This document shows, piece by piece, positions 644 to 61,630 of a stretch of DNA of 64,000 nucleotides. This DNA is from Pontibacter sp. Tf4 (lineage in GTDB: Bacteria > Bacteroidota > Bacteroidia > Cytophagales > Hymenobacteraceae). Location of the stretch: positions 124,001-188,000 of the forward strand of contig NZ_JACKZC010000003.1 in NCBI RefSeq assembly GCF_014212495.1, read 5' to 3'. The position numbers were made by a program, and so were the translations under genes. Position 1 is the stretch's first letter; the number at the start of each line of letters is the position of its first letter. The notes below the pieces were generated by a model that worked only from the letters and a program-made list of their open reading frames with translations, was not told the DNA's origin and searched no databases.

Positions 644-792
644 CTGAACTATAACTATAGTTGGTGTTCCCAAGATCAGCCTTTTACTCTCAAATGACTC
701 TACCCCGGTCTTGTTGAAAGGATTAGTGGAGAGTTTGCAAAACCGTTTGTTTGAGAAGATTTGGCAGAGGCACTTACCCCACCTGCCACAAA

Positions 793-1638
793 CTAAACAG
801 GAAATATTCTCGCCTTTGCCTGTTTCTGGAATTGCTCCGGCGTTAGTCCGGTCATTTTTTTAAAGAACCTGCTGAAGTAAGATCTGTCTTCAAAACCCAG
901 GCTATAGCCGATCTCTTTTATAGTTTGCGCGCTGAGGATGAGCTCTTGCTTCGCTTCAACTATAGCTCGCTCCTGCAATAGCTGTGTAATGGTTTTCCCG
1001 GTTTTCTGCTTCAGAATCTGGTTGAGCCGTTTAGGCGTTATGTTCAGTTTATCAGCATAAAACGATACCGACTTTTCTTCTCTGAAATGATTCTCCAGCA
1101 ACAAGAGGAAATGGTAGATTCGCTTCTCATTCAGGCCCTGGCTTGTAAAATTCTGCGTTTTGTACTGCATCAGCTTCAACAGAAATGCCTTCAGTAGCGC
1201 TTTAAGCACCAGTAAATTCTTTTGCAGCTGCTCATACTCATTTTGTAATACCCGCAGGAAGCACTCCAGTTCAGATACCATGTCTTCTTCCAGCAAAATC
1301 GTGGAGAAACTACCCACGCCCTTCCCGAGGAATAGCCTGATCACATCCAGACTAAATTCTTTTACCTCATAGTCGAGTACCGATTTATGAAAAGCGATAA
1401 GTACACCATTTTTACCTGATTTTCTGGGACGCGGAGAGCGGTTGGCCGGAATGAGGTACATCCAGTCACCTTTGATATAAAGCGCTTCATCCTTTATAAA
1501 ATGAATGGGCTCTTCATTCTTTAGCCAGGCTATTTCAAAATAATCTTCGCGGGAGGGGCTTTCGAAAAAAGACAGCGGTACGGCCTTCAGCGGGCTTATA
1601 AAAAACAGGTCTTTCTCCGGATTCACAGGCTGTAACAT
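793..1638 (-). CDS. AraC family transcriptional regulator
   Basis: 281 residues. The C-terminal ~95 residues are a typical double helix-turn-helix AraC domain: first HTH around KRLNQILKQKTGKTI, second around IKEIGYSLGFEDRSYFSRFFKK, followed by the family signature GLTPEQF. The N-terminal ~180 residues are the effector or dimerisation part, with a weak cupin-like pattern (basic PANRSPRPRKSG stretch). The gene is divergent from the aldehyde dehydrogenase at 1849, with 210 bases between them, so it is the likely local regulator of that gene, probably responding to an alcohol or aldehyde; this is inference from position. The family is certain, the ligand is unknown. Confidence 0.92.
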   Translation of the reverse strand: MLQPVNPEKDLFFISPLKAVPLSFFESPSREDYFEIAWLKNEEPIHFIKDEALYIKGDWMYLIPANRSPRPRKSGKNGVLIAFHKSVLDYEVKEFSLDVIRLFLGKGVGSFSTILLEEDMVSELECFLRVLQNEYEQLQKNLLVLKALLKAFLLKLMQYKTQNFTSQGLNEKRIYHFLLLLENHFREEKSVSFYADKLNITPKRLNQILKQKTGKTITQLLQERAIVEAKQELILSAQTIKEIGYSLGFEDRSYFSRFFKKMTGLTPEQFQKQAKARIFPV

Positions 1639-1784
1639 GTTATCAGTTATAAAACTATAGCGCCAAATGCATCGGGCGCTTCTCCCGGTTACCTTCCTTA
1701 ACTATAAACTATAGCTGTCAGGTTATTTCCCTTTTGTCCTACCTTATGGGTGTTCTGTACTACCCCTCGCGCCTGGTATAGTTG

Positions 1785-1792
1785 TAAATTTG
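1785..1792 (+). promoter_or_regulatory. Candidate -7 box (TAAATTTG) of the aldehyde dehydrogenase promoter
   Basis: TAAATTTG matches the Bacteroidota -7 consensus TAnnTTTG and lies 56 bases before the ATG at 1849. No clear TTTG -33 box is seen about 20 bases upstream, which would fit a promoter that needs the divergent AraC activator. Confidence 0.4.
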
Positions 1793-1848
1793 TAAGAGTT
1801 GCAAATCAGTAGCAAGATTCATTTTAGAACATTTAAAGATATAAAATT

Positions 1849-3405
1849 ATGAGCACATTAGTAGAACCCATTCTTGAGAATGGCAAAGCCGAGAAGAAAC
1901 TATATAAATTTCCGCAGCTTAAAGGAAAAGAATTACCACGCGACAACTTTATCGGTGGGCGATTTGTCCCACCAGTTAAAGGCGAATACTTCGACAACAT
2001 TTCCCCCATTAACGGGAAAGTTTTCGCGCAGGCAGCCCGCTCCACGAAGGAGGACGTTGAACTGGCGCTGGACGCGGCGCATGATGCGTTTCAGAAATGG
2101 GGCAAGACATCGCCGACGGAACGCAGTAATACACTATTAAAGATCGCACAGATCATCGAAGACAACCTGGAGTACCTGGCTACACTGGAAACTATAGATA
2201 ATGGGAAACCTATCCGTGAGACACGTGCAGCTGACCTTCCGCTGGTAGTAGACCACTTCCGTTATTTTGCCGGTGTGATCCGCGCCGAAGAAGGTGGTAT
2301 TTCAGAGCACGACGCCAACACGGTCAGCATTGTATTGCACGAGCCGCTGGGCGTAGTAGGGCAAATTATTCCATGGAACTTCCCGTTACTGATGGCTTCC
2401 TGGAAAATTGCTCCGGCCCTGGCTGCTGGTAACTGTATTGTTCTGAAACCAGCCGAGCAAACCCCAACCAGTATTCTGGGCCTGATGGAACTGATCGGTG
2501 ATGCGTTGCCAGCCGGTGTGCTGAACGTAGTGAACGGCTTTGGAGCAGAAGTTGGTAAGGCACTGGGTACTTCTCCGAGGATAAGCAAGATCGCGTTTAC
2601 CGGCTCCACAGCAACAGGTAAGCTGATCATGCAATATGCTTCCGAAAACATCATTCCGTCTACGATGGAGCTGGGCGGTAAATCTCCTAACATCTTCTTC
2701 CCTTCCGTAATGGAAGCTGATGACGAGTTCTTTGACAAGGCCCTGGAAGGTGCCACGTTCTTTGCCCTGAACCAGGGCGAGATCTGTACTGCTCCAACCC
2801 GTATCCTGGTGCACGAAAGTATAGCCGACGCCTTTACAGCCCGCGTGATCGAGCGAGTGAAAGCCATTAAAGCCGGTAACCCGCTGGATGGCGAGACCAT
2901 GATCGGGGCACAGGTATCCAAACCACAGTATGAGAAGATTCTGAACTACATTGAGATCGGTAAAGAAGAAGGAGCCGAAGTACTGGTAGGTGGTGAGGCA
3001 CAAAAGCTGGAGGGCGAACTGGCAGACGGATATTACATCCAGCCTACCATCCTGAAAGGCCGTAACAAAATGCGTGTATTCCAGGAAGAAATCTTTGGTC
3101 CGGTAGTGGCACTGACCACTTTTAAAACAACCGAAGAGGCCATTGAGATCGCCAACGATACCATTTACGGACTGGGTGCCGGCGTCTGGACCCGCGATAC
3201 CCACGAATTATACCAGGTGCCGAGAGCCATTCAGGCAGGCCGTGTCTGGGTTAACCAGTACCACACCTATCCGGCGCATGCTCCGTTTGGAGGCTACAAG
3301 CAGTCGGGTTACGGCAGAGAGAACCACAAGATGATGCTGGATCATTACCGCCAGACCAAGAACATGCTTATTTCCTACGACAAGAAGAAACAAGGTTTCT
3401 TTTAA
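1849..3405 (+). CDS. aldB: Aldehyde dehydrogenase, AldB/ExaC type
   Basis: 518 residues, the usual length. Oxidises aldehydes (acetaldehyde-like in the characterised relatives) to acids with NAD(P)+ in the cytoplasm. Visible motifs: the substrate and cofactor segment [16 protein letters not shown], the Rossmann glycine motif FTGSTATGK, the general-base glutamate in MELGGKSPN (E274) and catalytic Cys313 in NQGEICTAP. The 39-residue distance between Glu and Cys, longer than in most ALDHs, is the insertion typical of E. coli AldB and Pseudomonas ExaC. The C-terminus [12 protein letters not shown] is canonical. Its neighbour is a DUF779 gene, a partner often found with this subgroup, and a divergent AraC gene that probably controls it. 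The ATG at 1849 is preceded by a TAnnTTTG box. Confidence 0.93.
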
Positions 3406-3428
3406 TCTAAAGTTTGTCATTAACCTGA

Positions 3429-3460
3429 AATCACCTGGGGCCTCCTCAGGTGATTTTTTT
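3429..3460 (+). terminator. Intrinsic terminator between aldB-like gene and DUF779
   Basis: Nine-base perfect stem AATCACCTG / CAGGTGATT (3429-3437 with 3447-3455) followed by a run of T. It lies only 14 bases before the next start codon, so it could act as a partial terminator that lowers DUF779 expression relative to the dehydrogenase. Confidence 0.75.
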
Positions 3461-3473
3461 AACATCTATAAAC

Positions 3474-3824
3474 ATGGAAAAGATTATTGTAACAGATAAA
3501 GCAAAAGAAGTGATCAGACAGTTGAAGGAGCGCTATGGCGAGCTGATGTTTTACATGAGTGGTGGCTGCTGCGAAGGTTCGCAGCCTATGTGCTATGAAA
3601 AAGGCGATTATAAACCAGGCTCCCGCGACGTGCTGATCGGCGAGGTGGAAGGCTGTGAATTTTACCTGTCGGAAGAGCAGAACCAATACTATGAGCACTC
3701 ACAACTTCTATTGGATGCGGCACCCGGCATGGGTGGTGGCTTCTCGCTTGAAAGTGTGCTGGGCATGGCCTTTAGCGCTACTACAAATGCACTTATCGCA
3801 TCGGATAACACCAGAGAGGTATAG
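3474..3824 (+). CDS. DUF779 domain-containing protein
   Basis: 116 residues from the ATG at 3474; an upstream GTG lies inside the terminator hairpin and is rejected as start. The protein carries the Cys-rich motif GGCCEGSQPMCY (three Cys and a Met), then an acidic middle part and a Gly-rich GMGGGFSLE segment typical of DUF779. Genes of this family frequently sit directly next to AldB/ExaC-type aldehyde dehydrogenases, as here; the role is not established, and the Cys cluster suggests metal or redox binding. It is probably cotranscribed with the dehydrogenase by read-through of the hairpin in front of it. Confidence 0.88.
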   Translation: MEKIIVTDKAKEVIRQLKERYGELMFYMSGGCCEGSQPMCYEKGDYKPGSRDVLIGEVEGCEFYLSEEQNQYYEHSQLLLDAAPGMGGGFSLESVLGMAFSATTNALIASDNTREV

Positions 3825-3974
3825 TTTATAGTTAAATTGCCCTGTATGGTAATGAATGCACCCCTCAAAATAAGTACACACCAACGTTAGCACAGAAGCC
3901 CGCCATCTTTAACATAGCGGCTCTTATAGTTCACTTCTATTAGAGGAGGATTGTATTCTGAATAACCTGAAGGC

Positions 3975-4640
3975 TTAGCGTGCTTTTTCCAGTACATTGG
4001 CTATAGCAGTGAATCCCATTTTGCGGGCATGCTGCAGCGCTGTCACCCCATCCTTGTCCGGAATGTTGATGTCGCAGCCGGCATCTACCAAGGTTTGTAC
4101 TACCTCTACATAGGTTTGGGAACCATCTCCCAATACAACAGCCTCCATCAAAGCGGTCCAGCCCAGGCGGTTTACATGGTCTATAGGAAAGCCTTTGGTG
4201 TTGGCCAGCAGTTTTACTACCTCCAGGTGTCCTCTCTCGCAAGCTGGAATCAGAGCGCTGCCGTTGTAGCGGTTAAAGACATCAAACCGGGCGCCGTTTT
4301 CCAGGTATAGTTTCACAAGGTCAGTATACCCTGCTGCGCCGGCGTACAAGAACGGACTGTCCTTAATCTCGTCCTGTTGGTTTACATTGGCACCGTGTTT
4401 TACCAGTAAATTTGCCATATCCAGGTTGTTCTGATGCGTTGCCAGGAGTAATAGCGACCTTTTCTGATTATCGGTCGTATTCACGTCTGCTCCGTTTTTC
4501 AGGGCGGTTGCAACAGCATCTAACTTGTTGTTTTTAACGGCTTCCACCAGGGAGGCTTGTGTGGCAGGTGTGTGCATAGCAGTTTCTGTTTGGCAGGAAG
4601 TGAGCAATAAAAACGACAAAAGTAATAGCACTGTGTTCAT
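3975..4640 (-). CDS. Ankyrin repeat lipoprotein
   Basis: 221 residues. The N-terminus is a lipoprotein signal peptide (hydrophobic LLLLSFLLLTSC with Cys16 as the acylated residue), so it should be anchored in an envelope membrane. Residues from about 30 to 215 hold five or six ankyrin repeats, seen as recurring NGADVN, HGANVN, ENGARFD and AGCDIN turns with LLLA/ALMEA helices. Ankyrin repeats mediate protein-protein contact; the partner is unknown. It stands alone between the DUF779 gene (convergent side) and the sulfur block, with a 360-base upstream gap. Confidence 0.88.
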   Translation of the reverse strand: MNTVLLLLSFLLLTSCQTETAMHTPATQASLVEAVKNNKLDAVATALKNGADVNTTDNQKRSLLLLATHQNNLDMANLLVKHGANVNQQDEIKDSPFLYAGAAGYTDLVKLYLENGARFDVFNRYNGSALIPACERGHLEVVKLLANTKGFPIDHVNRLGWTALMEAVVLGDGSQTYVEVVQTLVDAGCDINIPDKDGVTALQHARKMGFTAIANVLEKAR

Positions 4641-4885
4641 AGTATAGGTGTCTGATATACGAGATTTCCCTAATGGATCAATGTTCTTACAGAAGACAAA
4701 CGCGTAACGGCTTCATCAAAGCAATTGGTATAATCTAAGTACCCTGTAATGTACGCAAGCTGAAAACCAATGACTTTTAGCTTCGGTTATAGCTGCCTTT
4801 TCAATTCTTTAACACAAACTATAGTTCTATGTTTCGTCACTATAGTTTATCAGCAAACTATGAAGCATCAATTACCATTTTCTTA

Positions 4886-4930
4886 TGTGACAATCGTCAC
4901 TGAACTGCCTTTCCCTATACTTTACCTTTG
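4886..4930 (+). promoter_or_regulatory. Crp-like operator plus -7 box of the persulfide dioxygenase gene
   Basis: TGTGACAATCGTCAC (4886-4900) is a near-perfect Crp-type palindrome (GTGAC-N4-GTCAC). Exactly 22 bases later comes TACCTTTG (4923-4930), a perfect TAnnTTTG -7 box. The palindrome centre falls near -42, the position of class II activator sites. The same arrangement recurs at 7407, 8348 and 18760 (minus). The remainder of the 364-base gap before the gene holds an AACTATAGTT palindrome at 4817-4826. Confidence 0.7.
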
Positions 4931-5004
4931 TATTACAAATTCAGGATAAATAACCCGGATAGAAGTAAAACGAAAGTAGTATAAAAAGTAAAACGGAACA
5001 GGAT

Positions 5005-6348
5005 ATGAAAATACAGCAATTTGAAGACAAAGGACTGGCTCACTTCGGATATGCCATTTTAAGTGAAGAAACAAATGAAGTAGTACTTATTGACCCGGCC
5101 CGAAACCCGCAGCCTTATTACGATTTTGCCCAGGCCCATAGTGCCAGCATTGTGGGTGTAATAGAAACACACCCGCACGCCGACTTTGTGAGCTCACACC
5201 TGGAGATACATCAGCAAACCGGCGCCACCATTTACACGCATAGCCTGGTGGGCGCAGATTACCCGCATCAGGCATTCGACGAAGGGGCTGTAGTACAGAT
5301 AGGCAATATAAAGCTAAAATCGCTGCATACGCCTGGTCACTCGCCGGACAGCATCAGCATTGTGCTGGAGCACGAAGGAAAAGATAAAGCCGTATTTACC
5401 GGCGACACCTTGTTTATCGGGGATGTAGGCCGGCCGGACCTGCGCGAGAATGCCGGTAACATAACAGCCAAGCGCGAAGAACTGGCCCGCCAGATGTACA
5501 GGAGCACCAGAGAGAAACTGATGAAACTGGATGATGATGTGGTTGTGTATCCGGCGCATGGTTCGGGCTCGCTGTGTGGCAAAGCCCTGAGCGATGCCAA
5601 CAGCAGCACAATTGGAGCAGAGAAAATTGGTAACTATGCCTTGCAGCCTATGAGCGAAGATGCATTTGTGAAGATACTGACAGAAGACCAGCCGTTTATT
5701 CCGAAGTACTTTGGATACGATGTAAGCCTGAACAAAAAAGGGGCACCAGACTATAGCCAAACTATAGATAGTGTTAAGAGGCTGCAGAAAAACTTTATAC
5801 CGGAAGCAGGTGCGCTTATAGTGGATGCCCGAAACGAAAAGGTGTTTAAGAAAGGACACTACAAAGGGGCGATCAACATACAGAACGGTGGCAAGTTTGA
5901 AACCTGGCTGGGAAGTATAGTTGGCCCAGAAGAGCCGTTTTACCTGGCAGCTGAAAGCGACGCGCAACTGAATGACCTGATCTCAAAAGCAGCCAAAATC
6001 GGCTATGAACTGCTGATAAAAGGGGCCTTTGTACTGGATGACGGTGCAGCCTACACATCGCCAATGCTTGATGTAGCTGCTTTCCGGCAGCACCCGCGCG
6101 ACTATACGATTGTAGATATTCGTAATGCTTCCGAAGTAAAGGCAGGCAAATTCTTTGAGAATGCGATCAATATTCCGTTGCCGGAACTGCGGGAGCGTGC
6201 AGATGAAATACCTGCAACCAAACCTATAGTTATACATTGTGCAGGCGGTTACCGTTCGGCCGCAGGTAGCAGTATTGTAGAAGCCGCATTGCCTGAAACT
6301 ATAGTAATGGACCTGAGCGAAGCTGTGAACGATTTCAAAAACAGTTAG
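5005..6348 (+). CDS. CstB-like MBL-fold persulfide dioxygenase with two rhodanese domains
   Basis: 447 residues, close to Staphylococcus CstB in length and domain order. Residues ~1-240 are a metallo-beta-lactamase fold of the ETHE1 type: THPHADFVSSH, HTPGHSPD, FTGDTLFIGDVGRPD and YPAHG supply the iron ligands; Cys191 in GSLCGKAL matches the extra Cys of CstB-type enzymes. Residues ~260-345 are a rhodanese-like domain with no Cys in its active loop (YLAAESD), probably inactive. Residues ~355-447 are an active rhodanese with Cys412 in CAGGYRS. Expected reaction: oxidation of low-molecular-weight persulfide with O2 and sulfur transfer, giving sulfite/thiosulfate, in the cytoplasm. It heads the sulfur block and carries a Crp-like site in its promoter. 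Confidence 0.9.
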   Translation: MKIQQFEDKGLAHFGYAILSEETNEVVLIDPARNPQPYYDFAQAHSASIVGVIETHPHADFVSSHLEIHQQTGATIYTHSLVGADYPHQAFDEGAVVQIGNIKLKSLHTPGHSPDSISIVLEHEGKDKAVFTGDTLFIGDVGRPDLRENAGNITAKREELARQMYRSTREKLMKLDDDVVVYPAHGSGSLCGKALSDANSSTIGAEKIGNYALQPMSEDAFVKILTEDQPFIPKYFGYDVSLNKKGAPDYSQTIDSVKRLQKNFIPEAGALIVDARNEKVFKKGHYKGAINIQNGGKFETWLGSIVGPEEPFYLAAESDAQLNDLISKAAKIGYELLIKGAFVLDDGAAYTSPMLDVAAFRQHPRDYTIVDIRNASEVKAGKFFENAINIPLPELRERADEIPATKPIVIHCAGGYRSAAGSSIVEAALPETIVMDLSEAVNDFKNS

Positions 6349-6366
6349 TAATAAAAGTTAACTTGT

Positions 6367-6401
6367 AAAAGCCGGTATACACACACTATACCGGCTTTTC
6401 G
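6367..6401 (+). terminator. Intrinsic terminator after the persulfide dioxygenase gene
   Basis: Twelve-base stem AAAAGCCGGTAT / ATACCGGCTTTT (6367-6378 with 6388-6399), T-rich on the 3' side, 19 bases after the stop codon. Confidence 0.85.
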
Positions 6402-6538
6402 TTTCTTGTGCAGGTCGTATAGTTAAACAAACTTCTTTAAAAGCCGATTTAACAATACATCAGAATGAAACAAAAGCCACGCTTCAGGTGGTAATTGACA
6501 GGAAGATCAGTAATTTAAAGTTCGTATACAGAAATCTC

Positions 6539-7186
6539 ATGCAGACTATCCCCAAAGAGCTCGTACTTAAAAAATTCCCTTCCCTGGAAGACTCCCTGCT
6601 GGATGAACTACTGGCCGAAAGTACACTGAAAGAAGTAAGTGAAGGTGAAGAAGTAATGCGCTCCGGGCAATACATTACGTCTACCATTCTGCTGTTGCGT
6701 GGTCTATTAAAAGTGTATCGCGAAGACGACGAAGGCAATGAGTTCCTGATGTATTACCTGGAAGCGGGTAATGCCTGCGCCCTGTCGATGATGTGTACTG
6801 CCCGGAACGAGAAAAGCCAGATCAGGGTAAAAGCTGTTACCGATGCGGAAGTGCTGCTGGTTCCCTCCCATTTATCGGAACTATGGCTGGGCAAGTACAA
6901 AACCTGGCACCACTTTGTTATAGCCTCTTACCGCCAACGCTTCGAAGAACTGCTGCAAACCCTCGACAGCATTGCCTTTAAAGGCCTGGACGAGCGGCTG
7001 CTGTTCTACCTGAAACGACACGTAAAAGTTAGTGGCAGCGAGGTTAAACTTTCCCACCAGCAGATCGCCAGCGAACTCAACTCTTCCCGCGAAGTAATCT
7101 CTCGTCTGCTTAAAAAACTGGAGCAAACCGGCGCCATCACCTTACACCGAAACTACATAGAAGTACACGACCTGACTATAGTTTAG
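6539..7186 (+). CDS. Crp/Fnr family transcriptional regulator of the sulfur block
   Basis: 215 residues from the ATG at 6539; the frame is open further upstream (GTG at 6488) but that extension is not family-like. Residues ~15-120 form the cyclic-nucleotide-binding-like beta roll, with the Cys pair in NACALSMMC where ligand-binding residues would sit, which could sense redox or sulfur species. Residues ~145-210 are the winged HTH: LSHQQIASELNSSREVISR. The recognition helix keeps R-E-x-x-x-R, the residues by which E. coli CRP reads TGTGA, and the sites found upstream of three neighbouring transcription units are TGTGAC-N4-GTCAC or one-base variants. Its own upstream region shows no such site. 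Confidence 0.92.
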   Translation: MQTIPKELVLKKFPSLEDSLLDELLAESTLKEVSEGEEVMRSGQYITSTILLLRGLLKVYREDDEGNEFLMYYLEAGNACALSMMCTARNEKSQIRVKAVTDAEVLLVPSHLSELWLGKYKTWHHFVIASYRQRFEELLQTLDSIAFKGLDERLLFYLKRHVKVSGSEVKLSHQQIASELNSSREVISRLLKKLEQTGAITLHRNYIEVHDLTIV

Positions 7187-7400
7187 GAGTTTGTGAGTTT
7201 AGGAGTTAGTGAGTTTGGGAGTTAGTGAGTTTAGGAGTTAGAGAGTTAAAGAGTTGATGAGTTAGTCAGTTTTTGAATTAATTTAATTTGTGTTTTTCCT
7301 TCAATTGAGAAAACTCAAACTATAGATTTATCCCAAAATTCGTACTCCTCAAACTCCTAAACTCTTTAACTCTCTAACTCCTAAACTCACAAACTATAAA
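7187..7400. repeat. Degenerate GAGTTAGT repeats with a perfect 29-bp inverted repeat
   Basis: Between the Crp gene and the TSUP gene the sequence is built from variants of GAGTTTAGGAGTTAGT on the left (about 7187-7265) and their reverse complement on the right (about 7342-7395). Positions 7227-7255 and 7360-7388 are perfect reverse complements of 29 bases, with a ~104-base AT-rich loop. The transcript would fold into one long hairpin and separate the two genes. No gene is seen inside. Confidence 0.85.
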
Positions 7401-7406
7401 CCTCTC

Positions 7407-7451
7407 TGTGACATGAGTCACTGAAGTTAGGGATAGCCTGCAGTACTTTTG
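7407..7451 (+). promoter_or_regulatory. Crp-like operator plus -7 box of the TSUP gene
   Basis: TGTGACATGAGTCAC (7407-7421), then 22 bases, then TACTTTTG (7444-7451), a perfect TAnnTTTG box. Same geometry as at 4886. Confidence 0.7.
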
Positions 7452-7475
7452 TATGGTTCTATAATTAAAATTACG

Positions 7476-8339
7476 ATGGAAATACTTGGGTACATTGCAG
7501 CCATGCTTATTGGCTTATCGCTTGGGTTGATTGGTGGAGGCGGTTCTATACTTACCGTACCAGTTCTGGTTTACCTGCTGGGCCTGAGCCCTGTCATCTC
7601 TACTGCTTATTCCCTGTTTATAGTTGGGCTTACCAGTTTGGTTGGTTCTTACAAGTTTTACCAGAAAGGGCTTGTCAGCCTGAAGACAGCCGCGGTATTT
7701 GGGGTACCTTCTATAGTGGCGGTATACCTCACCCGCCGTTACCTGGTGCCGGCCATTCCGGAAAACATTTTCCAGGCAGGTGATTTTATGGTAACGAAAG
7801 GTGTGCTCCTGATGCTCCTGTTTGCCGGCCTGATGGTGTTTGCTTCTATCTCCATGATCAAAAAGAGAAAAGAGGCGCCAGCTGAACCTGCCGGTGTAGT
7901 AGACGAGAATATAGATACAGAACTGGACGTAGAACACGCAAACCCTGCAGAAGTACACCCGCAACCAAAATTCAACTATGGCGGCATCCTGGCCGAGGGG
8001 CTGATAGTAGGAACGCTAACCGGGCTGGTGGGTGCAGGCGGCGGCTTTCTGATCATCCCGGCCCTGGTCCTGTTCAGCAAACTGGACATGAAAATGGCCG
8101 TGGGCACCTCCCTGCTCATCATTGCTGTAAAATCGCTGTTCGGATTTATAGGCGATGTATTCAATTATGAGATTGACTGGATGTTGCTTGGTATTTTCTC
8201 CACCATCTCAATCGTCGGCATCTTCATCGGCACTTACCTGTCTACCAAAATACATGCTGATAAACTAAAAACCTCGTTTGGCTGGTTTGTGCTTCTGATG
8301 GGTATTTACATCATTATCAAAGAGCTCTTTTTAGCCTAA
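7476..8339 (+). CDS. Sulfite exporter TauE/SafE (TSUP) family permease
   Basis: 287 residues from the ATG at 7476; a TTG at 7449 is in frame but overlaps the promoter box. Two four-helix halves each open with the family glycine motif: IGLSLGLIGGGGSILTVP at the N-terminus and TGLVGAGGGFLIIPAL near residue 190. A polar acidic loop (VDENIDTELDVEHANP) separates the halves. TSUP proteins move sulfite, thiosulfate or organosulfonates across the inner membrane; in sulfide-detoxification operons such as those run by BigR or CstR they are thought to export the sulfite made by persulfide dioxygenase. That role fits here. Confidence 0.9.
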   Translation: MEILGYIAAMLIGLSLGLIGGGGSILTVPVLVYLLGLSPVISTAYSLFIVGLTSLVGSYKFYQKGLVSLKTAAVFGVPSIVAVYLTRRYLVPAIPENIFQAGDFMVTKGVLLMLLFAGLMVFASISMIKKRKEAPAEPAGVVDENIDTELDVEHANPAEVHPQPKFNYGGILAEGLIVGTLTGLVGAGGGFLIIPALVLFSKLDMKMAVGTSLLIIAVKSLFGFIGDVFNYEIDWMLLGIFSTISIVGIFIGTYLSTKIHADKLKTSFGWFVLLMGIYIIIKELFLA

Positions 8340-8347
8340 CCTGCCTG

Positions 8348-8392: not shown

Positions 8393-8435
8393 TAATAGTA
8401 TTTATCTATAGCTTACTTATTAACCTTACCATAGT

Positions 8436-9392: not shown

Positions 9393-9420
9393 ATAATGAA
9401 TAATTAGTAATGAGTACTGA

Positions 9421-53852: not shown

Positions 53853-53856
53853 CAGG

Positions 53857-54390
53857 ATGGAGTACCGGTCTATACATTACTGGCAATACGAGCCTGATAT
53901 ACAGGAAACGCTTATTTTAGAAGAAGCCGTTGCCTTTACCGGGCGTGAGAATGAAGCCGACCTTTTACAGGCAATCGGCTGCTTTATTGCAAAGCATACC
54001 GGCGCCCTCTACACCATGATCGCCCTGCTCGCTGACGACCTGAAACAGGCCTCTACCGTTGCTTTTATTACAGAAAAGACTGTACTCCCCAACATTACCT
54101 ACACCCTGAAAGGCACCCCCTGCGACGAAGTTGTTACCCAGCGTTTCTGCTACTACCCGCTGAACGTAGCACAGGCTTTTCCGGAAGACAAGGAGTTTGA
54201 AGAAAAGAAAATTGAATGTTACATGGGCAGCATCCTGCTATCGCATAACAACGAGCCGCTTGGCCTGGTAGCCCTGATGCACGACAAGCCGCTCCAGAAT
54301 GTAGCCTTTGCCGAACACCTCATTCTGGTACTAAGCCCGACCATTGAAGCAGAACTTGCGAAACTAAAAGTGATGCAGGTACAGTCCTAA
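53857..54390 (+). CDS. GAF domain-containing protein
   Basis: 177 residues: one GAF-like domain only (LQAIGCFIAKHTGALYTMIALL ... CYMGSILLSHNNEPLGLVALMHDKP ... AEHLILVLSPTIEAELAKL). The conserved order helix-strand-YMGxxL-LGLVAL is typical. Probably a small-molecule sensor without its own output. Convergent with the ABC operon. Confidence 0.82.
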   Translation: MEYRSIHYWQYEPDIQETLILEEAVAFTGRENEADLLQAIGCFIAKHTGALYTMIALLADDLKQASTVAFITEKTVLPNITYTLKGTPCDEVVTQRFCYYPLNVAQAFPEDKEFEEKKIECYMGSILLSHNNEPLGLVALMHDKPLQNVAFAEHLILVLSPTIEAELAKLKVMQVQS

Positions 54391-54397
54391 AATTCTG

Positions 54398-55078
54398 CTA
54401 CATCCTGATAATCCGGCCATCTTCCATCTCTATGATGCGGCCTGAGCGCTCGGCAAAACCGGGGTCGTGGGTAACGATGAGCAGGGTCTGGTTGTGTACT
54501 TCGGCCAGTTCTTTAAATATCTCGAACACCATCTCGCTGTTGCGCATGTCCAGGTTGCCGGTTGGCTCGTCGCCCATAATAATGTGTGGATCGTTGATGA
54601 GCGCCCGCGCAATTGCCACCCGCTGCTTTTCGCCCCCGGATACCCGGTAGGCGCTCTTGGTTGCCAGGTGCCCGATGCCCAGCATGTTCAGCCGCTCCAT
54701 GGCCCGGTGCTCTACTTCCTGTTCGGTGTAACGTCCCAGTTTTAAGCCTGGCAGCATAACGTTGCGCAGCACGGTAAACTCGTTCAGCAGGTAATGAAAC
54801 TGGAACACAAACCCGATCTTCTCGTTCCGGATAGCGGCCAGTTCCACGTCCTTCCTGCCCGTCATCAGTTCCTTATCTATCAGCAGCTCGCCGGCATAAT
54901 CAGTATCCATAGTAGACAGAATGTAGAGCAGCGTAGATTTGCCGCAGCCTGATTTCCCGATCACAGACACAAACTCGCCCTTGTTAATGGAAAAAGTAAT
55001 GTCGTGCAGCACCTTTACCGTAACCGGGTCGTGAAACTCTTTGCTGATGTGCCGTGCATCCAGTATCGTTTCTGCCAT
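54398..55078 (-). CDS. ABC transporter ATP-binding protein, LolD/MacB-NBD type
   Basis: 226 residues. Walker A GKSGCGKST, RVSGGEKQRVAIARALI signature and ADEP-like MGDEPTGNLD Walker B region, and H-loop VTHDP. The MxxxxDEPTGNLD sequence is typical for the MacB/LolD family of mechanotransmission ABC systems. Start is 1 base after the permease stop, so translation is coupled. Last gene of a three-gene operon. Confidence 0.94.
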   Translation of the reverse strand: MAETILDARHISKEFHDPVTVKVLHDITFSINKGEFVSVIGKSGCGKSTLLYILSTMDTDYAGELLIDKELMTGRKDVELAAIRNEKIGFVFQFHYLLNEFTVLRNVMLPGLKLGRYTEQEVEHRAMERLNMLGIGHLATKSAYRVSGGEKQRVAIARALINDPHIIMGDEPTGNLDMRNSEMVFEIFKELAEVHNQTLLIVTHDPGFAERSGRIIEMEDGRIIRM

Positions 55079-55079
55079 G

Positions 55080-56339
55080 TTACTTCCCTCTGATTATTTC
55101 CACCGGATCCACTCTGCTTGCTTTACGGGCCGGAAAGAAACCGGCAAAATAGGTGGTAATGAGCGCAAAAGAGCCCCCGATGAAATAAAAGATCAAACTA
55201 TAGTTAATGGGGTAGGTTTTTATAGTTGGCAATGCCGCCGTGTTGAACGGAATGTTATCGATGATGACGGAAAAGATTAAGCCGAATAACAAACCTACCA
55301 CGCCGCCAAACAACCCGATACTCAGGGCAATTACCAGGAAAATGCGGTTCACGTCGCTGCCCGAAAAACCAGTTGCTTTCAGGATAGCGATCGAATCCAT
55401 TTTTTCATAGATCATCATGTTCAGGATGTTGAAAATACCAAAGCCGGCAACTATAAGCAGCGTAACGCCCACAGCATACGAAATAAGCGAACGGATGCTG
55501 CTGCCGGTATCGAACTGGGCATTGGCGGTCTGTATATCTTCGGCATCGATAGCAAACAGCTGGGCGTATTCTTTGGCTACAGCCGGGGCCATGTCCAGGT
55601 CGTGGAGCTTCACCTGTATGTCGGTGATATAGTTGGCCGGTTTACCTAACAGCTTCTGGGTAGTGGCAATGGAGGCATAGCTCTGCACCTTGTCGTATTC
55701 CTGAATACCGGACTGGAAATAGCCTACTACTTTCAGGGGAAAGCGCTCGCCTTGGGCGGTCGTTACCTGCACCACATCGCCAATATCGGCTACCAGAATT
55801 TCGGCCAGGCCTTTGCCTAAAATAATGCTGTTGGCTACCTGCTCGGCATCTATCGCGGAGCCCTCAGTTACATAATCGCCGAAGTTGAAAAGCCGCATCT
55901 CTTCTTCCACATCCACCCCGTTTATCACACCGGTAATATCAATGGTACCTTCGTTGTAAAAAACCTGTGTTGAGAGGCGGGGCGTTACACCCAGCACGCG
56001 CGGGTCGTTTTTTATAGTTTGCAGAATGGGGCCGCTGTTGTAGATCTCCTGGCGGGTAACGCCTGCTTTTACAGAGCTTATAAAGTTGTAGGAATCCTTG
56101 AACCCGGGCGCTGCATTTACCGGCTGGTTCTCGCTGGGCTTTATTTCGTTGTAAAGGCGCACATGTGGCGTGCGGTTCAGGATAAGGCCATCCAGCAGGT
56201 CGTTCAGGCCGTTCATAAAACTGAGCAGCGTAATGAACATGGCAATACTGAAGGTAACCCCAACGGCCGCCACCAGCGTTTGACGCCACCGCGCCAGCAA
56301 CAGCGACTTAGCTATCCCGAATATCAGTTTACTTCTCAT
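55080..56339 (-). CDS. ABC transporter permease, MacB/LolC-E (FtsX) type
   Basis: 419 residues. N-terminal helix (LVAAVGVTFSIAMFITLLSFM), a large periplasmic domain (~40-285) and three C-terminal helices (AVGVTLLIVAGFGIFNILNM, IALSIGLFGGVVGLLFGLIF, YFIGGSFALITTYFAGFFP) ending in ARKASRVDPVEIIRGK, the FtsX-superfamily C-terminal signature. It overlaps the adaptor gene by 4 bases (ATGA). Confidence 0.93.
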   Translation of the reverse strand: MRSKLIFGIAKSLLLARWRQTLVAAVGVTFSIAMFITLLSFMNGLNDLLDGLILNRTPHVRLYNEIKPSENQPVNAAPGFKDSYNFISSVKAGVTRQEIYNSGPILQTIKNDPRVLGVTPRLSTQVFYNEGTIDITGVINGVDVEEEMRLFNFGDYVTEGSAIDAEQVANSIILGKGLAEILVADIGDVVQVTTAQGERFPLKVVGYFQSGIQEYDKVQSYASIATTQKLLGKPANYITDIQVKLHDLDMAPAVAKEYAQLFAIDAEDIQTANAQFDTGSSIRSLISYAVGVTLLIVAGFGIFNILNMMIYEKMDSIAILKATGFSGSDVNRIFLVIALSIGLFGGVVGLLFGLIFSVIIDNIPFNTAALPTIKTYPINYSLIFYFIGGSFALITTYFAGFFPARKASRVDPVEIIRGK

Positions 56340-57421
56340 TGCGCCGGTTTTACGATCACAGCATCTTTGCCAAGTCCCTCCACAATCTCCACTTTCTGGT
56401 AATCCTTCAGCCCGGTTTTCACTTTTACCTTCTCGTCATCATCGGTCAGCACATAGTTTTCGTCCAGCAGGTACTCGCGGGGTATGGTCAGGGCATTTTT
56501 CTTTGTCTGGATAACGATGTTGGCTTCGGTGGTGAGGTTGGGGAACAGCTCGGGCGGGCTTTTGGTGAAGCGGGCTTCTACGGTAAACGAGCGGGTGCGC
56601 GCATTCATGGCCGGGTTTATCTTATACACTTCGGCTTCAAATACCTGGCCTTTGTAGCTGTCCATGTTCAGGAACACGCGCTGGCCAGGCTTTACGCGCA
56701 CAATGTCATATTCATCTACCTGCAGCTCAACTATAAAATCGGTGGCATCGCCAACTATAGCTACCGGCGTCTGCGGACTCACCAGTTCTCCTTCCTCCTT
56801 CAATACACTGTATACCTTGCAGGCGGTCTCGCTTTTCACGGTATAGTCATCGGCTACAGCGCTGCTGATCTCCAGGTTTTTCTGGGCCTGGCGGGCGGCT
56901 ACGTTCAGTTGTTTTTTCAGGTCGTTGTAGCGCAGTTTAGCCGAGTTGTAAGCCGTTACCGAGTTCTCGTAGCTGAGTTCGCGCTGCTCCAGTTCTACCC
57001 GGGTGCCGATGTTGCTGGCCCACAGGTTGCGCTGCCGTACCAGCAGCAGCGAATCATTGTGTTTGCGCTGGCGGGCCAGTTCTATGGTTTGCAGCAGTTC
57101 GTTCAGCTTTTCCTGGTTTGCTCCTACCCGGGCGGCTTCGGCAGCAATGCGGGCATTTTCAGTACTCAGGCGGGCTGTCTCGTTATCTAATTTCAGCAAT
57201 GGATCGCCTTTGGCTACTGTATCGCCTTCGGTCACAAATATCTTCTGTATCGTGCCGCTCACCGTAGGGAAAACCTGGTACTGGTCCACACTCTTCACTA
57301 CGCCAGAGGCGTATACCGATTCCGAAATATCTTCTACGGTTGGTTGTGTCTTTTCCTGTTTTCCGCCACAGGAAGTAAGTATGGATAGCAGCAGGAAGGC
57401 GAGTGGAAAGTATAGTTTCAT
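56336..57421 (-). CDS. Periplasmic adaptor (HlyD/MacA-like) lipoprotein
   Basis: 361 residues from the ATG at 57421; a 33-base upstream extension is rejected because it would bury the lipobox LTSC (Cys18). Residues ~50-70 give the biotinyl-lipoyl half motif (GTIQKIFVTEGDTVAKGDPLLKL), a long alpha-hairpin coiled coil (~75-190), then the second lipoyl half and a beta-barrel (PGQRVFLNMD). It would link the FtsX-type permease to an outer-membrane exit duct, which is not encoded here. Exported substrate unknown. Confidence 0.92.
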   Translation of the reverse strand: MKLYFPLAFLLLSILTSCGGKQEKTQPTVEDISESVYASGVVKSVDQYQVFPTVSGTIQKIFVTEGDTVAKGDPLLKLDNETARLSTENARIAAEAARVGANQEKLNELLQTIELARQRKHNDSLLLVRQRNLWASNIGTRVELEQRELSYENSVTAYNSAKLRYNDLKKQLNVAARQAQKNLEISSAVADDYTVKSETACKVYSVLKEEGELVSPQTPVAIVGDATDFIVELQVDEYDIVRVKPGQRVFLNMDSYKGQVFEAEVYKINPAMNARTRSFTVEARFTKSPPELFPNLTTEANIVIQTKKNALTIPREYLLDENYVLTDDDEKVKVKTGLKDYQKVEIVEGLGKDAVIVKPAQ

Positions 57422-57493
57422 GCAGGGATATACTTTGTAGTGTGGTGCTGGCAAGGCTATCGTTTGGTTGCCTTACCTACATACAAGTTATAG

Positions 57494-58051
57494 CTATAGT
57501 TTGTTAAACGGAAAATATCCGAGGTGTAATTTATCCGGCTCACCGGTGGCTCCGGGCATTAGCAGCAAACTATAGACTGCTTTCAGCTCCGGGGGCAGGA
57601 TGTCTTTTACGAGGTGCAGTTCGTCTACGTCCACGCCAAATTTATCGTCGATGTGCGAGGCGGCGCCTTTAAAGCCGGTGTGTTTGTAAAAAGTCGTTTG
57701 TTTTGCCTGCCGTATGGCTTCGGCCTGGTTATTGGCCACCACCAGCATCTTGTAATGAAACTCATCAAACTCACCGGCCTTGTAACCTCCTAAGTTCAGG
57801 AAAAACAAGTGCTGGTCTGTTACTTCATTGGCTTCAGTTTTAGAAACTATAGTTACCCGATACTCTCCTACTATGGTTACTTCGCGCCAGGCATCTACGT
57901 GCATGGTTCCGGCCCCGGGCCAGAACTTTTTAAACTGCGGCACCAGGTCCTTTATCGTTTCTCCTATCCCGAAAAAGACATCGTGCTGCTCGGTGTTCCG
58001 GCCGGGTGGCCTGCAGCCAAGCATCACCATAAATAATTTCTGATCTGCCAT
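57494..58051 (-). CDS. DUF1543 domain-containing protein
   Basis: 185 residues, duplicated DUF1543-like domain: LFMVMLGCRPPGRNTEQHDVFFGIG and later FEFHYKMLVVANNQAEAIRQAK-like sequence with FKHTGFKG. HVDAWREV is also a family element. Cytoplasmic; function unknown. Confidence 0.88.
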   Translation of the reverse strand: MADQKLFMVMLGCRPPGRNTEQHDVFFGIGETIKDLVPQFKKFWPGAGTMHVDAWREVTIVGEYRVTIVSKTEANEVTDQHLFFLNLGGYKAGEFDEFHYKMLVVANNQAEAIRQAKQTTFYKHTGFKGAASHIDDKFGVDVDELHLVKDILPPELKAVYSLLLMPGATGEPDKLHLGYFPFNKL

Positions 58052-58155
58052 ACGTTACCCTGCAACGGGTGCTTGCTATAGTTTGATTCCGTTGCTTAAT
58101 CTTTAAACAGGCAAATAAAGTATAAGTTAAACAACAGCAAATGTAGGAAACAACT

Positions 58156-58650
58156 ATGGAAGACAACTATAAAGTACCTGCCCAAACCACCATCGGACAT
58201 GTGCACCTTAAAGTAAGCGACCTGGACCGTGCCCTGGAATTTTACACTGGCTTACTTGGCTTCGAGCTGATGCAGATGTATGGAAAGGATGCGGCTTTTG
58301 TTTCGGCGGGCGGGTATCATCACCATATCGGGCTCAATACCTGGTACAGCAAAGGTGCTGGCCCGGCTCCGGTTCGCGCGGCCGGCCTCTTCCATGCTGC
58401 CATCCTCTACCCTACCCGCAAAGACCTGGCTGCCATTGTTAAACGCCTGATAGAAGCCAACTACCCGCTTACCGGTGCCTCCGACCACGGCGTATCGGAA
58501 GCCATATACCTGAACGACCCCGACCAGAACGGCCTGGAACTATACTGGGACCGCCCGCGCGATGAATGGCTGAGAACCGCAGATGGCGGGATAAATATGT
58601 TTACCGAGCGCCTGGACCTGGAAGACCTGCTGAAAGAACTCGAAAAATAG
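58156..58650 (+). CDS. VOC family protein (glyoxalase/extradiol dioxygenase-like)
   Basis: 164 residues, two paired beta-alpha-beta-beta-beta modules. Metal ligands suggested by IGHVHLKVSDLDRALEFYTGLLGF (His) and GLFHAAILYPTRKDL (His) and LELYWDRP (Glu). It resembles CatE/YfiE-type catechol 2,3-dioxygenase-like proteins. Substrate unknown. Confidence 0.9.
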   Translation: MEDNYKVPAQTTIGHVHLKVSDLDRALEFYTGLLGFELMQMYGKDAAFVSAGGYHHHIGLNTWYSKGAGPAPVRAAGLFHAAILYPTRKDLAAIVKRLIEANYPLTGASDHGVSEAIYLNDPDQNGLELYWDRPRDEWLRTADGGINMFTERLDLEDLLKELEK

Positions 58651-58876
58651 CGTGCCAAAGAGGCTGTTTTGAATTTATTTGCCGGGCTGCAAAGTGCATT
58701 TCCCGGGACCTGGCTTCTGCTCTTTTTGCGTCATAGAGCTGCTATGCCACTCAAAAGGAGCATCGACAGCACCCTGAAATACATCTTTTCGCTTCCGGAA
58801 ATAAAATCAAAACAGCCACTTATAGTTTGCACTTATAAAATCAGTAAGTTCGTATACGCTTACAAACCCACAAACC

Positions 58877-60364
58877 ATGCAACCAACTTACGACCTGCTG
58901 ATAACCGGTGCAACTATACACGATGGAACAGGACATACGCCTTACATAGCAGATGTATGGGTGAAAGAAGATGAGATCTGCCTGATCGGGAAACACAATG
59001 ATGCCTCTTTTTCAGCAAAGCGGATCATTAACGGAGATGGCCTTGTCCTTACGCCTGGTTTTATAGATGCCCATGCGCATGGCGAGCCTTTTAAAACACC
59101 GGAGTTTGAGAATTTTCTTTCGATGGGCGTGACAACCATTTGCCTGGGCCAGGATGGTTTCAGCCCTGACCTAAGCGAAGACAGCTATATTTCGGGAGAA
59201 GCATTAAGCAGTTGGATGAGCCGTGTGGATGAGTTGCAGCCCGGTGTGAATATTGTGATGTTTGTGGGCCATAATACGATCCGGATGCAGAGCGGCGCCA
59301 AATATAAGCTGGAACCTACCGAAGAGGATTTTGCCCAGATGGAACAACTCCTGCATGAGGGCATGGACCTGGGCTGTTTTGGCATGACCACCGGCCTGGA
59401 ATACAACCCCGGCTTTAACTGCAAAACGCCTGAACTGGACCGGTTGGCTAAAATTGTAGGTCATCGCGGCGGCATGATCATGAGCCACATGCGGAGCGAA
59501 AACGATGCAACTATAGTTCCGGCAATCGAAGAACTGCTTTCGCAAGGCAACTACTGCCCGGTGCAGATATCGCATATAAAAGTAGTATATGGCAAAGGTA
59601 CCAGCCGCGCCGAAGAGATCTGTAATCTGCTGGACGAGGCCCGCGCCAATGGCATCAAAGCATCAGCCGACTTTTACCCTTATACGGCCAGCTACACGTC
59701 CATCGAAATCCTGTTCCCGGACTGGGCCAAGCTACCTAATAACTACGAGGAGGTAAAAGCCACTCGCGGCGAAGAGCTAAAGCAATTCCTGGAAGAAAAG
59801 ATAACCTCACGTAACGGTCCGGAAGCAACGTTGCTGGGAACAGGCCCTTTCAGGGGAAAAACCTTGGGCCAGATTGCTACAGAGTTAAACAAGCCTTATG
59901 AGGAAGTGCTGATGGAAGACATCGGTCCTTACGGAGCCTTTGGAGCCTATTTTATAATGGATGAAGCCCTGCAGGATACCTTACTCAAATACCCCAACAC
60001 CATGCTTTGCACTGATGGGAGCCCGTTTATGAACCACCCACGCAGCTTTGGTTCGTTTGCGAAGATGATCGAGACCTTTGTATTTGAAAAGCAACTTTTC
60101 CCGTTGGAAGAAGGCATCCGCAAAATGACCGGCCTTACGGCCGAAACCATAGGTATACCAGATCGTGGCTTCATAAAACCCGGCTACAAAGCAGACCTGT
60201 TACTCTTCGACCCTGCAGAAATAAAAGCCAATGCCACGTACGAAGACCCGGTGCAGCTAAGCACTGGTTTCCGGTATGTGATCGTAAATGGCAAAGTAGT
60301 AAAAGAGCAGGAAACCTTTACCGGTGATCGTGCCGGCCGCGTGTTGCGAAAGCCGCAACTATAA
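58877..60364 (+). CDS. D-aminoacylase-type amidohydrolase (N-acyl-D-amino-acid deacylase family)
   Basis: 495 residues. Metal motif GFIDAHAHGEPF (His-x-His), GVTTICLGQDG, later HIKVVYGKG with a metal His, and CTDGSPFMNHPRSFG with the catalytic Asp; the C-terminus GFIKPGYKADLLLFDP is typical of the amidohydrolase superfamily. Members hydrolyse N-acyl-D-amino acids or related cyclic amides. Cytoplasmic. The first ~25 residues form the small beta domain. Starts at the ATG at 58877. Confidence 0.9.
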   Translation: MQPTYDLLITGATIHDGTGHTPYIADVWVKEDEICLIGKHNDASFSAKRIINGDGLVLTPGFIDAHAHGEPFKTPEFENFLSMGVTTICLGQDGFSPDLSEDSYISGEALSSWMSRVDELQPGVNIVMFVGHNTIRMQSGAKYKLEPTEEDFAQMEQLLHEGMDLGCFGMTTGLEYNPGFNCKTPELDRLAKIVGHRGGMIMSHMRSENDATIVPAIEELLSQGNYCPVQISHIKVVYGKGTSRAEEICNLLDEARANGIKASADFYPYTASYTSIEILFPDWAKLPNNYEEVKATRGEELKQFLEEKITSRNGPEATLLGTGPFRGKTLGQIATELNKPYEEVLMEDIGPYGAFGAYFIMDEALQDTLLKYPNTMLCTDGSPFMNHPRSFGSFAKMIETFVFEKQLFPLEEGIRKMTGLTAETIGIPDRGFIKPGYKADLLLFDPAEIKANATYEDPVQLSTGFRYVIVNGKVVKEQETFTGDRAGRVLRKPQL

Positions 60365-60397
60365 AATGCGTAACTTGCGCCTTTATAGTTCCTTTTT

Positions 60398-61024
60398 ATG
60401 ACGCACCGCCATTTTATATTACATAAGCCGTATGGTTACCTGAGCCAGTTTGTCTGCGAGCACAAGAAGAAGAAAATGCTGGGCGAACTACACGATTTCC
60501 CGGAAGGAACGATGGCGATTGGCAGGTTGGATGAAGACAGCGAAGGCCTTTTGTTACTCACTACTAACGGAAAAGTAAGCGAGCAGGTCCGTAGCAAACA
60601 CATCGAGAAAGAGTACTATGCCCAGGTAGACGGCCTGATAACCGACGAAGCCATAAAATTATTGCAGGAAGGCGTGGAAATAGGCATCGGTGGCGACAAG
60701 TATACAACGCTTCCCTGCGCTGCTTTCAGATTAGAACAAGATCCCGGTTTCCCGCAACGCAGCCGCAAGATTCGCGACGACCGCCATGGCCCTACCAGTT
60801 GGGTTTCCATTACCTTAACCGAAGGCAAAAACCGCCAGGTCCGCAAAATGACCGCTGCGGCCGGCTTCCCTACATTGCGTTTGGTAAGAGTAAGAATTGG
60901 CTGTATTCACTTAGCCGATCAGCAGTCTGGTGAAGTGGTGGAAGCAGAAGATCTGTCGCTGGCTATCATGTCCGAGCAGATCCTGTCTGAATCAGGATTT
61001 TCAGGATTTGGGCTTTCGCTATAG
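60398..61024 (+). CDS. rluE: rRNA pseudouridine synthase, RluE-like
   Basis: 208 residues. YGYLSQF at the N-terminus, catalytic Asp in GRLDEDSEGLLLLTTNG, KEYYAQVDG, and GKNRQVRKMTAAAGFPTLRLVRVRIG. No S4 domain in front, as in RluE, which makes pseudouridine 2457 in 23S rRNA of E. coli. It lies 33 bases after the deacylase gene and is probably cotranscribed. Confidence 0.92.
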   Translation: MTHRHFILHKPYGYLSQFVCEHKKKKMLGELHDFPEGTMAIGRLDEDSEGLLLLTTNGKVSEQVRSKHIEKEYYAQVDGLITDEAIKLLQEGVEIGIGGDKYTTLPCAAFRLEQDPGFPQRSRKIRDDRHGPTSWVSITLTEGKNRQVRKMTAAAGFPTLRLVRVRIGCIHLADQQSGEVVEAEDLSLAIMSEQILSESGFSGFGLSL

Positions 61025-61630
61025 TTTTAGCTATTGTTCGGTGGTTGCGAAATAACCCACCCCTCCCCCTCCCGAGAGGGGAATTTCGGCTGTTGCTATA
61101 GTTTGAACTTTATAGTTTCGTAGTTACTGTTTGTCCAACCACCCCTGCCCCTCCTTAACCAAGGAGGGGAACTCTGATACTGCTATAATTGAAGTTATAG
61201 TTCTATAGTTGCTGCTTTAACACCCCTATAGTCCCCTCAAGGGGACAGTCTCCGTCTTGCTATAGTTGACAACTATAGTTCTATAGATACAGACCAAGAG
61301 CGGACAGGTCGCGACCTGTCCCTACGGAACTATAACCACGAGAAAAACCGATCTACTTTATCGAAGAGCAAGCACAGCAACTATAGTTGCAACCGTAGCT
61401 ATCGAACTGATCTCAGTCTTTGGGTTGAGCGCCTTGTAGATTTCTGGTGCTGAAAGCATTGCGAGGCACGAGCAAAGGAAATGTACACCGCGCGATGCCC
61501 GAAGACGGGGCCTCCCGGCCTCAGAGGGAGCCAAGCTAACTATAAAACGATAGGTACATAGAGCTCCCAGGATTGGTAGAAGCTATAAAACAGAAGGCTG
61601 GTTTCAAACATTTTAGACGTTTACCATCAG
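61025..61630. repeat. Intergenic repeat array: CTATAGTT words alternating with CCCCTC/GAGGGG hairpins
   Basis: From 61040 to about 61290 three degenerate units follow each other: CACCCCTxCCCCTCC...GAGGGGAA (hairpins at ~61060-61085, ~61148-61172, ~61222-61246), then GCTATAGTT, a TATAGTTxxxTAGTT pair and TGCTG/TGTTTGT-like spacer. A 20-base perfect palindrome GGACAGGTCGCGACCTGTCC follows at 61302-61321, another dispersed intergenic repeat type. A related unit stands at 29446-29600. No gene is seen in these 606 bases. Confidence 0.75.

Follow-up and report, generated by a model that had tools for sequence, protein, structure and literature searches.

The iterated word TATAGTT of Pontibacter sp. 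Tf4 and its dialects in the genus: a probable self-recognition word of the DNA uptake type

In a stretch of 64,000 nucleotides from Pontibacter sp. Tf4 (assembly GCF_014212495.1, contig NZ_JACKZC010000003.1, positions 124,001 to 188,000; contig C17:124001-188000 in the numbering used here and hereafter called the window), the palindromic decamer AACTATAGTT had been noticed at 23 places and compared with HIP1, the iterated palindrome of cyanobacteria. This raises the questions of what exactly is repeated and what the repeats might serve. The word was here followed through the source genome (G000; 4,452,287 bases in 23 contigs) and a sample of 50 genomes of the genus, which are denoted by G-numbers. 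The repeated unit is one-armed and changes its letters between species groups, and TATAGTT is probably one dialect, the local one, in a family of self-recognition words that spans the genus and would work like a DNA uptake sequence.

Unit of the signal and its dialects in the genus

All 23 exact copies of AACTATAGTT lie at the starts given in the original prediction, with none missing and none in addition. The decamer is the most frequent 10-mer of the window (the runner-up occurs 16 times), and only two other palindromic 10-mers occur there as often as twice. Counted on both strands, the 46 occurrences in the window compare with an expectation of 0.1 under Markov models of order 1 and order 2 and of 1.6 under order 3, and the genome-wide counts (1477 sites versus 4 for the reversed word) are also far from expectation. 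Due to the fact that AACTATAGTT is missing from the top 12 10-mers of the window under the (k-2)-order model, the excess of the decamer is carried by its 7- and 8-mers.

A remark in the original prediction that many more sites carry CTATAG plus one arm turned out to be the key. TATAGTT or its complement AACTATA occurs 196 times in the window on both strands (7.7 expected, order 1), at 173 distinct places along positions 1..64000, 23 of them palindromic, and 13,109 times in the whole genome (6652 and 6457 on the two strands), compared to 626 for the reversed word. Within 464 kb of the genome, 1278 copies of TATAGTT were counted versus 72.7 expected (order 2), 774 of CTATAGTT versus 13.4, and 262 of AACTATAGTT (131 sites) versus 1.0. 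CTATAG was found 1564 times on both strands of the same 464 kb and carries at least one GTT arm at 643 of 782 sites, so that armless CTATAG is rare. Three substitution classes in the TATA core all but abolish the word, and among 3319 copies of TATAGTT the preceding base is mostly C (57%) or T (29%). From the excess of TATAGTT and this preceding base it follows that the unit is one-armed YTATAGTT and not the palindrome. Over all TATA places the arms behave as though independent of each other (ratio 0.97 for 129 palindromes), and the palindrome was set aside as the unit on this ground; a preference for it at fixed peptides remains. AACTATAGTT was used at 90 of 128 [xxA]TIV peptides, whereas AACTATA was used at 474 of 1116 [xxA]TI peptides without a following V (Fisher p 2e-9). 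The palindrome is two overlapping inverted copies, which are favoured over one copy. Of the proposed likeness to HIP1 the iteration stands; the palindrome as the unit falls with the excess of one-armed TATAGTT, and the single constant word falls because the word changes between species groups.

AACTATAGTT is frequent in eight of the 50 genomes (1477, 1300, 1164, 1124, 1087, 330, 232 and 104 sites) and occurs 0-28 times in the other 42. Three dialect words that differ by one or two bases were distinguished, namely YTATAGTT, TTATACTT and TATACCT. In k-mer samples of 20 kb, TATACTT was counted 50 times in G029 (3.0 expected) and 55 times in G014 (1.3 expected), and TATACCT 36 times in G063 (1.5 expected); in-depth k-mer sampling covered seven genomes of the own clade. 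According to whole-genome counts relative to the reversed word, 39 of the 50 genomes have a clear dialect, two are borderline and nine (G025, G027, G068, G069, G064, G024, G033, G002 and G023) have none. A single dialect predominates in 35 of the clear genomes, and two occur together in the other four (G026, G032, G065 and G071). TATAGTT reaches 15-21 times the reversed word in G000, G030, G066, G060 and G065, TATACTT 8.8-38.5 times in 19 genomes and TATACCT 17.7-38.4 times in 12 genomes. The mixed genomes carry TATAGTT and TATACTT at 8118 and 7552 copies (G026), 6094 and 9116 (G032), 3531 and 10614 (G071), and 11,674 and 5110 (G065). The borderline values, 4.0 times for TATACTT in G007 and 5.7 times for TATACCT in G036, do not exceed what these words reach in genomes of other dialects. 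In G031, G035 and G004 the three most frequent 7-mers of the rpoB-side stretches include no dialect word, although the genome counts show one.

Outside the genus, TATAGTT showed no excess in five further genera of the family (154 genomes; at most 528 copies versus 460), and it was the one dialect word counted there. No TATA word is prominent in 20-kb loci of Rufibacter, Hymenobacter, Algoriphagus and two Cyclobacteriaceae, nor in the best 25 of 80 named loci. In a scan of named genomes, the relatives matched by RpoB included Rufibacter with 90% and Hymenobacter with 86% identity.

The dialects follow the species tree, for which a quick one-gene tree of rpoB DNA was calculated from all 50 genomes and three outgroups, with G007 coded as TATACTT, G036 as TATACCT and G065 as TATAGTT only. 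The TATAGTT-bearing genomes G000, G060, G032, G065, G026, G030 and G066 form one clade of seven (SH-aLRT 100), and the twelve TATACCT genomes form another (SH-aLRT 99). TATACTT is scattered over the rest of the tree and is probably ancestral. The dialect-free state requires several losses, and G071, which stands outside the TATAGTT clade, carries some TATAGTT. All dialect states together need 11 changes on the tree, compared to a mean of 26.1 after shuffling, and none of 200 shuffles was as low. As a separate observation, the dialect-free genomes are larger (median 5.8 Mb, n=9, versus 4.6 Mb, n=41; Mann-Whitney p 1e-5, uncorrected for kinship).

Placement, codon choice and retention of the copies

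The picture of a word that is iterated genome-wide, in coding and non-coding DNA, and sparse in an island was supported. In four blocks the density of TATAGTT is about 2/kb in coding and 7-10/kb in intergenic DNA; the coding density in dialect-free genomes, a pool that here included the borderline G007 and G036, is 0.16/kb. Copies on the sense strand shun the frame that gives a TAG stop, and intergenic clusters show spacings of 8, 12 and 20 bases. Copies occur on both strands without clear replication polarity: there is none in G030, where 26 stretches taken round its one contig of 4.34 Mb gave 818 and 853 copies on the two strands and 814 versus 857 when sorted by GC-skew (correlation -0.05), and a weak reverse lean in G020. 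Apart from islands, the copies are evenly spread around the chromosome. Viral contigs showed no excess (22 with a doubled copy versus 40 with the reversed word).

One stretch of the window, positions 30271-41233, has 1.0 TATAGTT/kb compared to 3.2 and 3.9/kb on its flanks and is probably acquired DNA. Upstream of the window, TATAGTT is thin (0.15-1.6/kb) in C17:1-100000 (loci L039-L043), where 72 TATAGTT, 81 TATACTT and 45 TATACCT were counted, as if this DNA had been drawn from a species with another dialect. By eye this region resembles a defence island, with BREX-like and type I restriction-like genes. Single word-poor stretches are also present in G030 and G020.

Duplicated longer repeats do not account for the copies. 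Of 1205 copies, 16.5% have a partner that matches at least 22 of 36 flank positions (2.0% for random places), and 11.7% have one under the stricter limit of at least 24 of 36 (1.2%), which places about 12-17% of the copies in repeated contexts; since the contexts are mostly unique, long repeats were set aside as the source. Copies in the spacers of hairpin-repeat arrays are among those with repeated context. Beside hairpins the local dialect is found: TATAGTT and TATACTT were counted 279 and 3 times in G000, 216 and 0 times in G030, and 2 and 29 times in G020 (0 and 1 in G060, which is uninformative), in counts over both strands and overlapping windows in which a copy may appear more than once.

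Codon choice points to selection for the word. For the tripeptide T-I-V the spelling ACT-ATA-GTT was used 34 times out of 44 in G000 (0.5 expected by codon use) and 50 times out of 68 in G030 (1.5 expected), but never in a TATACTT genome (23 cases) or in dialect-free genomes (9 cases). In four TATAGTT genomes, TATAGTT spells X-I-V in 254 of 447 cases after C (8.5 expected), 147 of 371 after T (9.8), 18 of 194 after A (6.9) and 22 of 144 after G (3.3); for T-I-V alone the word was present in 101 of 135. TATACTT genomes wrote X-I-L with TATACTT in 79 of 253 cases after T (1.9 expected) and in 10 of 203 after C (1.0). The same codon-controlled test gave 6 of 205 and 8 of 255 in dialect-free samples, and the two-dialect genome G026 fills both kinds of places (23 of 51 and 30 of 58). 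Where synonymous codons permit the word, occupancy is 57-75%. Read as a mutation-selection balance, odds for T-I-V of about 160-fold over codon expectation would correspond to a scaled drive of about 5.

Between species of the same dialect, own-dialect copies outlast control words. From G030 to G066, 147 of 208 own words were retained versus 110 of 216 control words (Fisher p 4e-5), with 18 of 39 for the foreign TATACTT; from G000 to G030 the values were 54 of 125 versus 11 of 77 (Fisher p 1e-5). The controls were a hand-picked set that included ATAGTTT; this word has six bases in common with the motif, an overlap that acts against the observed difference. From G030 to G032 there was no advantage (21 of 85 versus 26 of 98 controls), and across dialects, from G030 to G029, 2 of 43 own words were retained versus 7 of 69 controls. 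An in-place exchange of G for C at aligned copies was seen in 4 of 43, 7 of 145 and 4 of 85 cases.

Copies and neighbouring features in the window

Positions of the double site AACTATAGTT were taken from exact matches, and their gene context from a list of open reading frames (ORFs) and from domain searches. Eight of the 23 copies are inside a listed ORF, where at least six had been predicted. The copy at 12461..12470 codes for T-I-V within an rsbR-like ORF (11730-12605, RsbRD_N and STAS domains), and relatives without the site have the same T-I-V in different codons; the copy at 14007..14016 codes for N-Y-S-S within a phosphatase ORF (13371-14441, HATPase/SpoIIE domains). Both peptides had been named correctly. 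The other six are at 14626..14635 in a histidine-kinase-like ORF (14453-15793, by domains), 42603..42612 in ORF 42159-42620, 55196..55205 in ORF 55080-56339, 57845..57854 in ORF 57494-58051, 59509..59518 in an amidohydrolase-like ORF (by family search) and 21487..21496 in a doubtful ORF that overlaps others. Outside the listed ORFs are the remaining 15 copies, at 653..662, 4817..4826, 10470..10479, 19631..19640, 23451..23460, 23558..23567, 23694..23703, 25154..25163 (directly past an ORF end), 44868..44877, 48068..48077, 49665..49674, 49706..49715, 50105..50114, 61271..61280 and 61379..61388. As predicted for the AT-rich island, no exact copy is present between 25154 and 42603.

A cluster of three TATAGTT copies flanked by hairpin repeats is located on the forward strand at 29455..29485. 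The TATAGTT-poor stretch 30271..41233 that follows carries an IS200-type transposase gene and an adenine methyltransferase gene. The transposase gene lies among REP-like repeats (families D2, D3 and D8) at 35919-39409; the two are possibly a RAYT and its repeats. Additionally, CTAG is strongly depleted in the window (28 versus 266 expected, both strands), and a tandem array with an 8-base period of the type AGTTTAGG/AGTTAGTG is present at 7164-7283. A pair of metallo-beta-lactamase-like and TauE-like genes at 5005-8339 has a similar second set at C17:52425-57478, judged by eye from the first residues.

Self-recognition in DNA uptake and rival explanations

To our knowledge, dialects of DNA uptake sequences (DUS) are known from Neisseriaceae and Pasteurellaceae only. 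The DUS of Neisseriaceae resemble the words described here in their thousands of copies, their one-armed form, dialects that differ by few bases and follow phylogeny, genomes with two dialects, intergenic enrichment and foreign stretches with another dialect, and those of Simonsiella muelleri form overlapping dyad pairs like the palindrome here (PMC3630211). They differ in a core of 10-12 bases compared to 7-8 here, in the phylum, and in being read by the minor pilin ComP, whereas no prepilin peptidase was found above the cut-off in the 50 genomes. The uptake signal sequences (USS) of Pasteurellaceae are alike in having two types split by clade and copies within and between genes at a density in the same range, and differ in having a 9-base core with an extended flank. 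They also show a bias towards gene ends (PMC2346458), which is not obvious here. Within the same phylum, Riemerella is competent although no type IV pilus has been described for it, and Riemerella columbina prefers its own DNA; no uptake word is proven there, and only A-rich k-mers are reported as frequent (PMC7965970, PMC8459023).

Uptake sequences are characterized by the combination of an asymmetric word on both strands, clade-wise dialects, genomes with mixed dialects, loss, scarcity in islands and retention (PMC3630211), and among the roles named in the original prediction (methylation, segregation, uptake and repair) uptake fits best. In the mechanism proposed here, a surface or periplasmic DNA receptor would prefer word-bearing DNA in natural transformation, and imported word-bearing fragments would recombine into the chromosome, by which copies arisen by point mutation would spread and lost ones would be restored. 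A change in receptor specificity would give a new dialect and a species barrier, loss of the receptor would let the copies decay, and the palindrome, as a double site, would let the receptor bind from either strand. The further claim that this is a third, independent lineage of self-DNA recognition for transformation, situated in Bacteroidota, with a receptor of a kind different from type IV pilins, at least three dialects that act as mating barriers within the genus, species in the middle of a switch with two dialects, and repeated loss, we regard as evenly poised.

A type IV minor pilin would not be the reader here. For USS the predicted reader is the minor pilin ComN/PpdA (PMC12616744). A search with one family model (PF01478, pilins and secretins not included) found no type IV prepilin peptidase above the cut-off in any of the 50 genomes, the best match below it being 19.7 bits in G060 (cut-off 26.5), and the same model matched in 12 of 14 control genomes. 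Readers of the known minor pilin kind (ComP/ComN-type) are therefore unlikely. According to PMC8459023, transformation in Riemerella requires, besides ComEC, DprA, ComF and RecA, envelope proteins for which other machineries have no known counterparts, and by analogy an envelope receptor of this kind may be the reader. PF18942, taken from the Riemerella screen, was tried as the receptor and dropped: it matched in 22 of 50 genomes, but the short proteins lie in operons that by eye resemble the SusD/SusC nutrient type, and a long protein of this family occurs in four dialect-free genomes (G064, G024, G033 and G002). As side observations from the TATAGTT clade, a DUF5689 lipoprotein gene adjoins a SusD-like gene at loci L224 (G000 C3), L221-L223, L225 and L227, and in several genomes this pair is followed by a gene that by eye resembles a phospholipase-D-type nuclease.

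Several results weigh against an uptake function. ComEC (PF03772), whose presence in all 50 genomes is in keeping with uptake as part of the competence machinery, also occurs in the nine dialect-free ones and was discarded as a discriminator of dialects; other bacteria for which no such words are known have it too. The ComEC match of G000 is in a frame of 561 residues compared to about 700 in most relatives, and in the dialect genomes G009 and G021 a stop interrupts the match; these short or interrupted frames may reflect assembly error or decay. No receptor was found, the sole lead tried, PF18942, ending in an unrelated-looking nutrient operon. Some strand imbalance exists, both for TATACTT in G020 (317 versus 364 by skew, correlation -0.49) and in the first 280 kb of contig C1 of G000 (563 versus 387, in part due to the coding-sense rule). 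The core of 7-8 bases is shorter than the 9-12 of known uptake words, and an extended flank like that of USS was not found beyond -3 to +8 in the two larger dialect sets, the TATACCT set of 78 copies being too small. Moreover, conservation and codon drive are also expected from any other strong sequence-specific selection.

Such selection could come from a Chi-type recombination or repair signal, read on one strand by a RecBCD/AddAB-like helicase-nuclease whose specificity drifts between species. The word is short, one-armed, very frequent and selected at synonymous sites as Chi would be, and Chi words differ between species (also named in PMC3630211). This reading is nevertheless unlikely, as there is no leading-strand link in G030, G020 leans weakly the opposite way, and nine word-free genomes would have had to lose Chi function. 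Chi itself is strongly leading-strand biased, and its roughly thousand copies in E. coli are far below the density here. A HIP1-like site maintained by a DNA methyltransferase together with mismatch or photodamage repair would explain a short iterated word in and between genes at a density near that of HIP1, as well as the preference for the palindrome at fixed peptides, and an adenine methyltransferase gene is present in the window (33577-34470). This gene is in the motif-poor stretch, however, and HIP1 is a palindromic octamer that does not vary and is linked to methyltransferases (PMC4390886), whereas the unit here is one-armed with three dialects, which makes this explanation improbable. 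We give the same low credence to a mark for the nucleoid, segregation or nuclease protection, that is, a DNA-binding protein with thousands of sites and a specificity drifting between species; the even chromosomal spread outside islands and the spaced intergenic clusters would suit it, but the polarity typical of segregation words is absent and nine genomes manage without the word. We know of no such mark that changes its letters between the species of one genus and still retains thousands of copies.

Origins without a reader fare worse still. Spread by REP-like intergenic repeats and RAYT transposases is very improbable: clusters between hairpin repeats and the IS200-type transposase gene at 37322-37867 speak for it, but the mostly unique contexts largely refute it, coding density is still far above that of dialect-free genomes, and copies next to hairpins carry the local dialect. 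Mutational bias alone, without selection, is hardly credible. In the coding examples, copies and the matching places in relatives are separated by point substitutions, with no indels; but an 8-base target that takes up to three synonymous changes is filled at most suitable places, and the words of sister clades differ by one base, which context mutation is not known to bring about. HIP1-like methylation, a Chi-like function and a repeat-borne origin fit less well than uptake.

In the literature on the decamer, uptake words and their dialects, iterated palindromes, competence in Bacteroidota and Pontibacter transformation, most subscription papers being outside the scope, no report of these words was found; for the decamer, the papers listed (20 of 33) all concern malaria parasites. 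Dialects as such are already known; new are this word, this phylum and the lack of a pilus peptidase. If the uptake reading is true, this would be a third case, in another phylum and apparently without pilus machinery, and such tags would evolve repeatedly and with different readers. The 50 genomes form a natural series of three dialects and of mixed, weak and absent states, which opens the switching and loss of dialects to direct study and allows a search for the receptor by co-variation. If the word does not serve uptake, a strong, letter-switching selection on an 8-base word throughout the genome still needs explaining.

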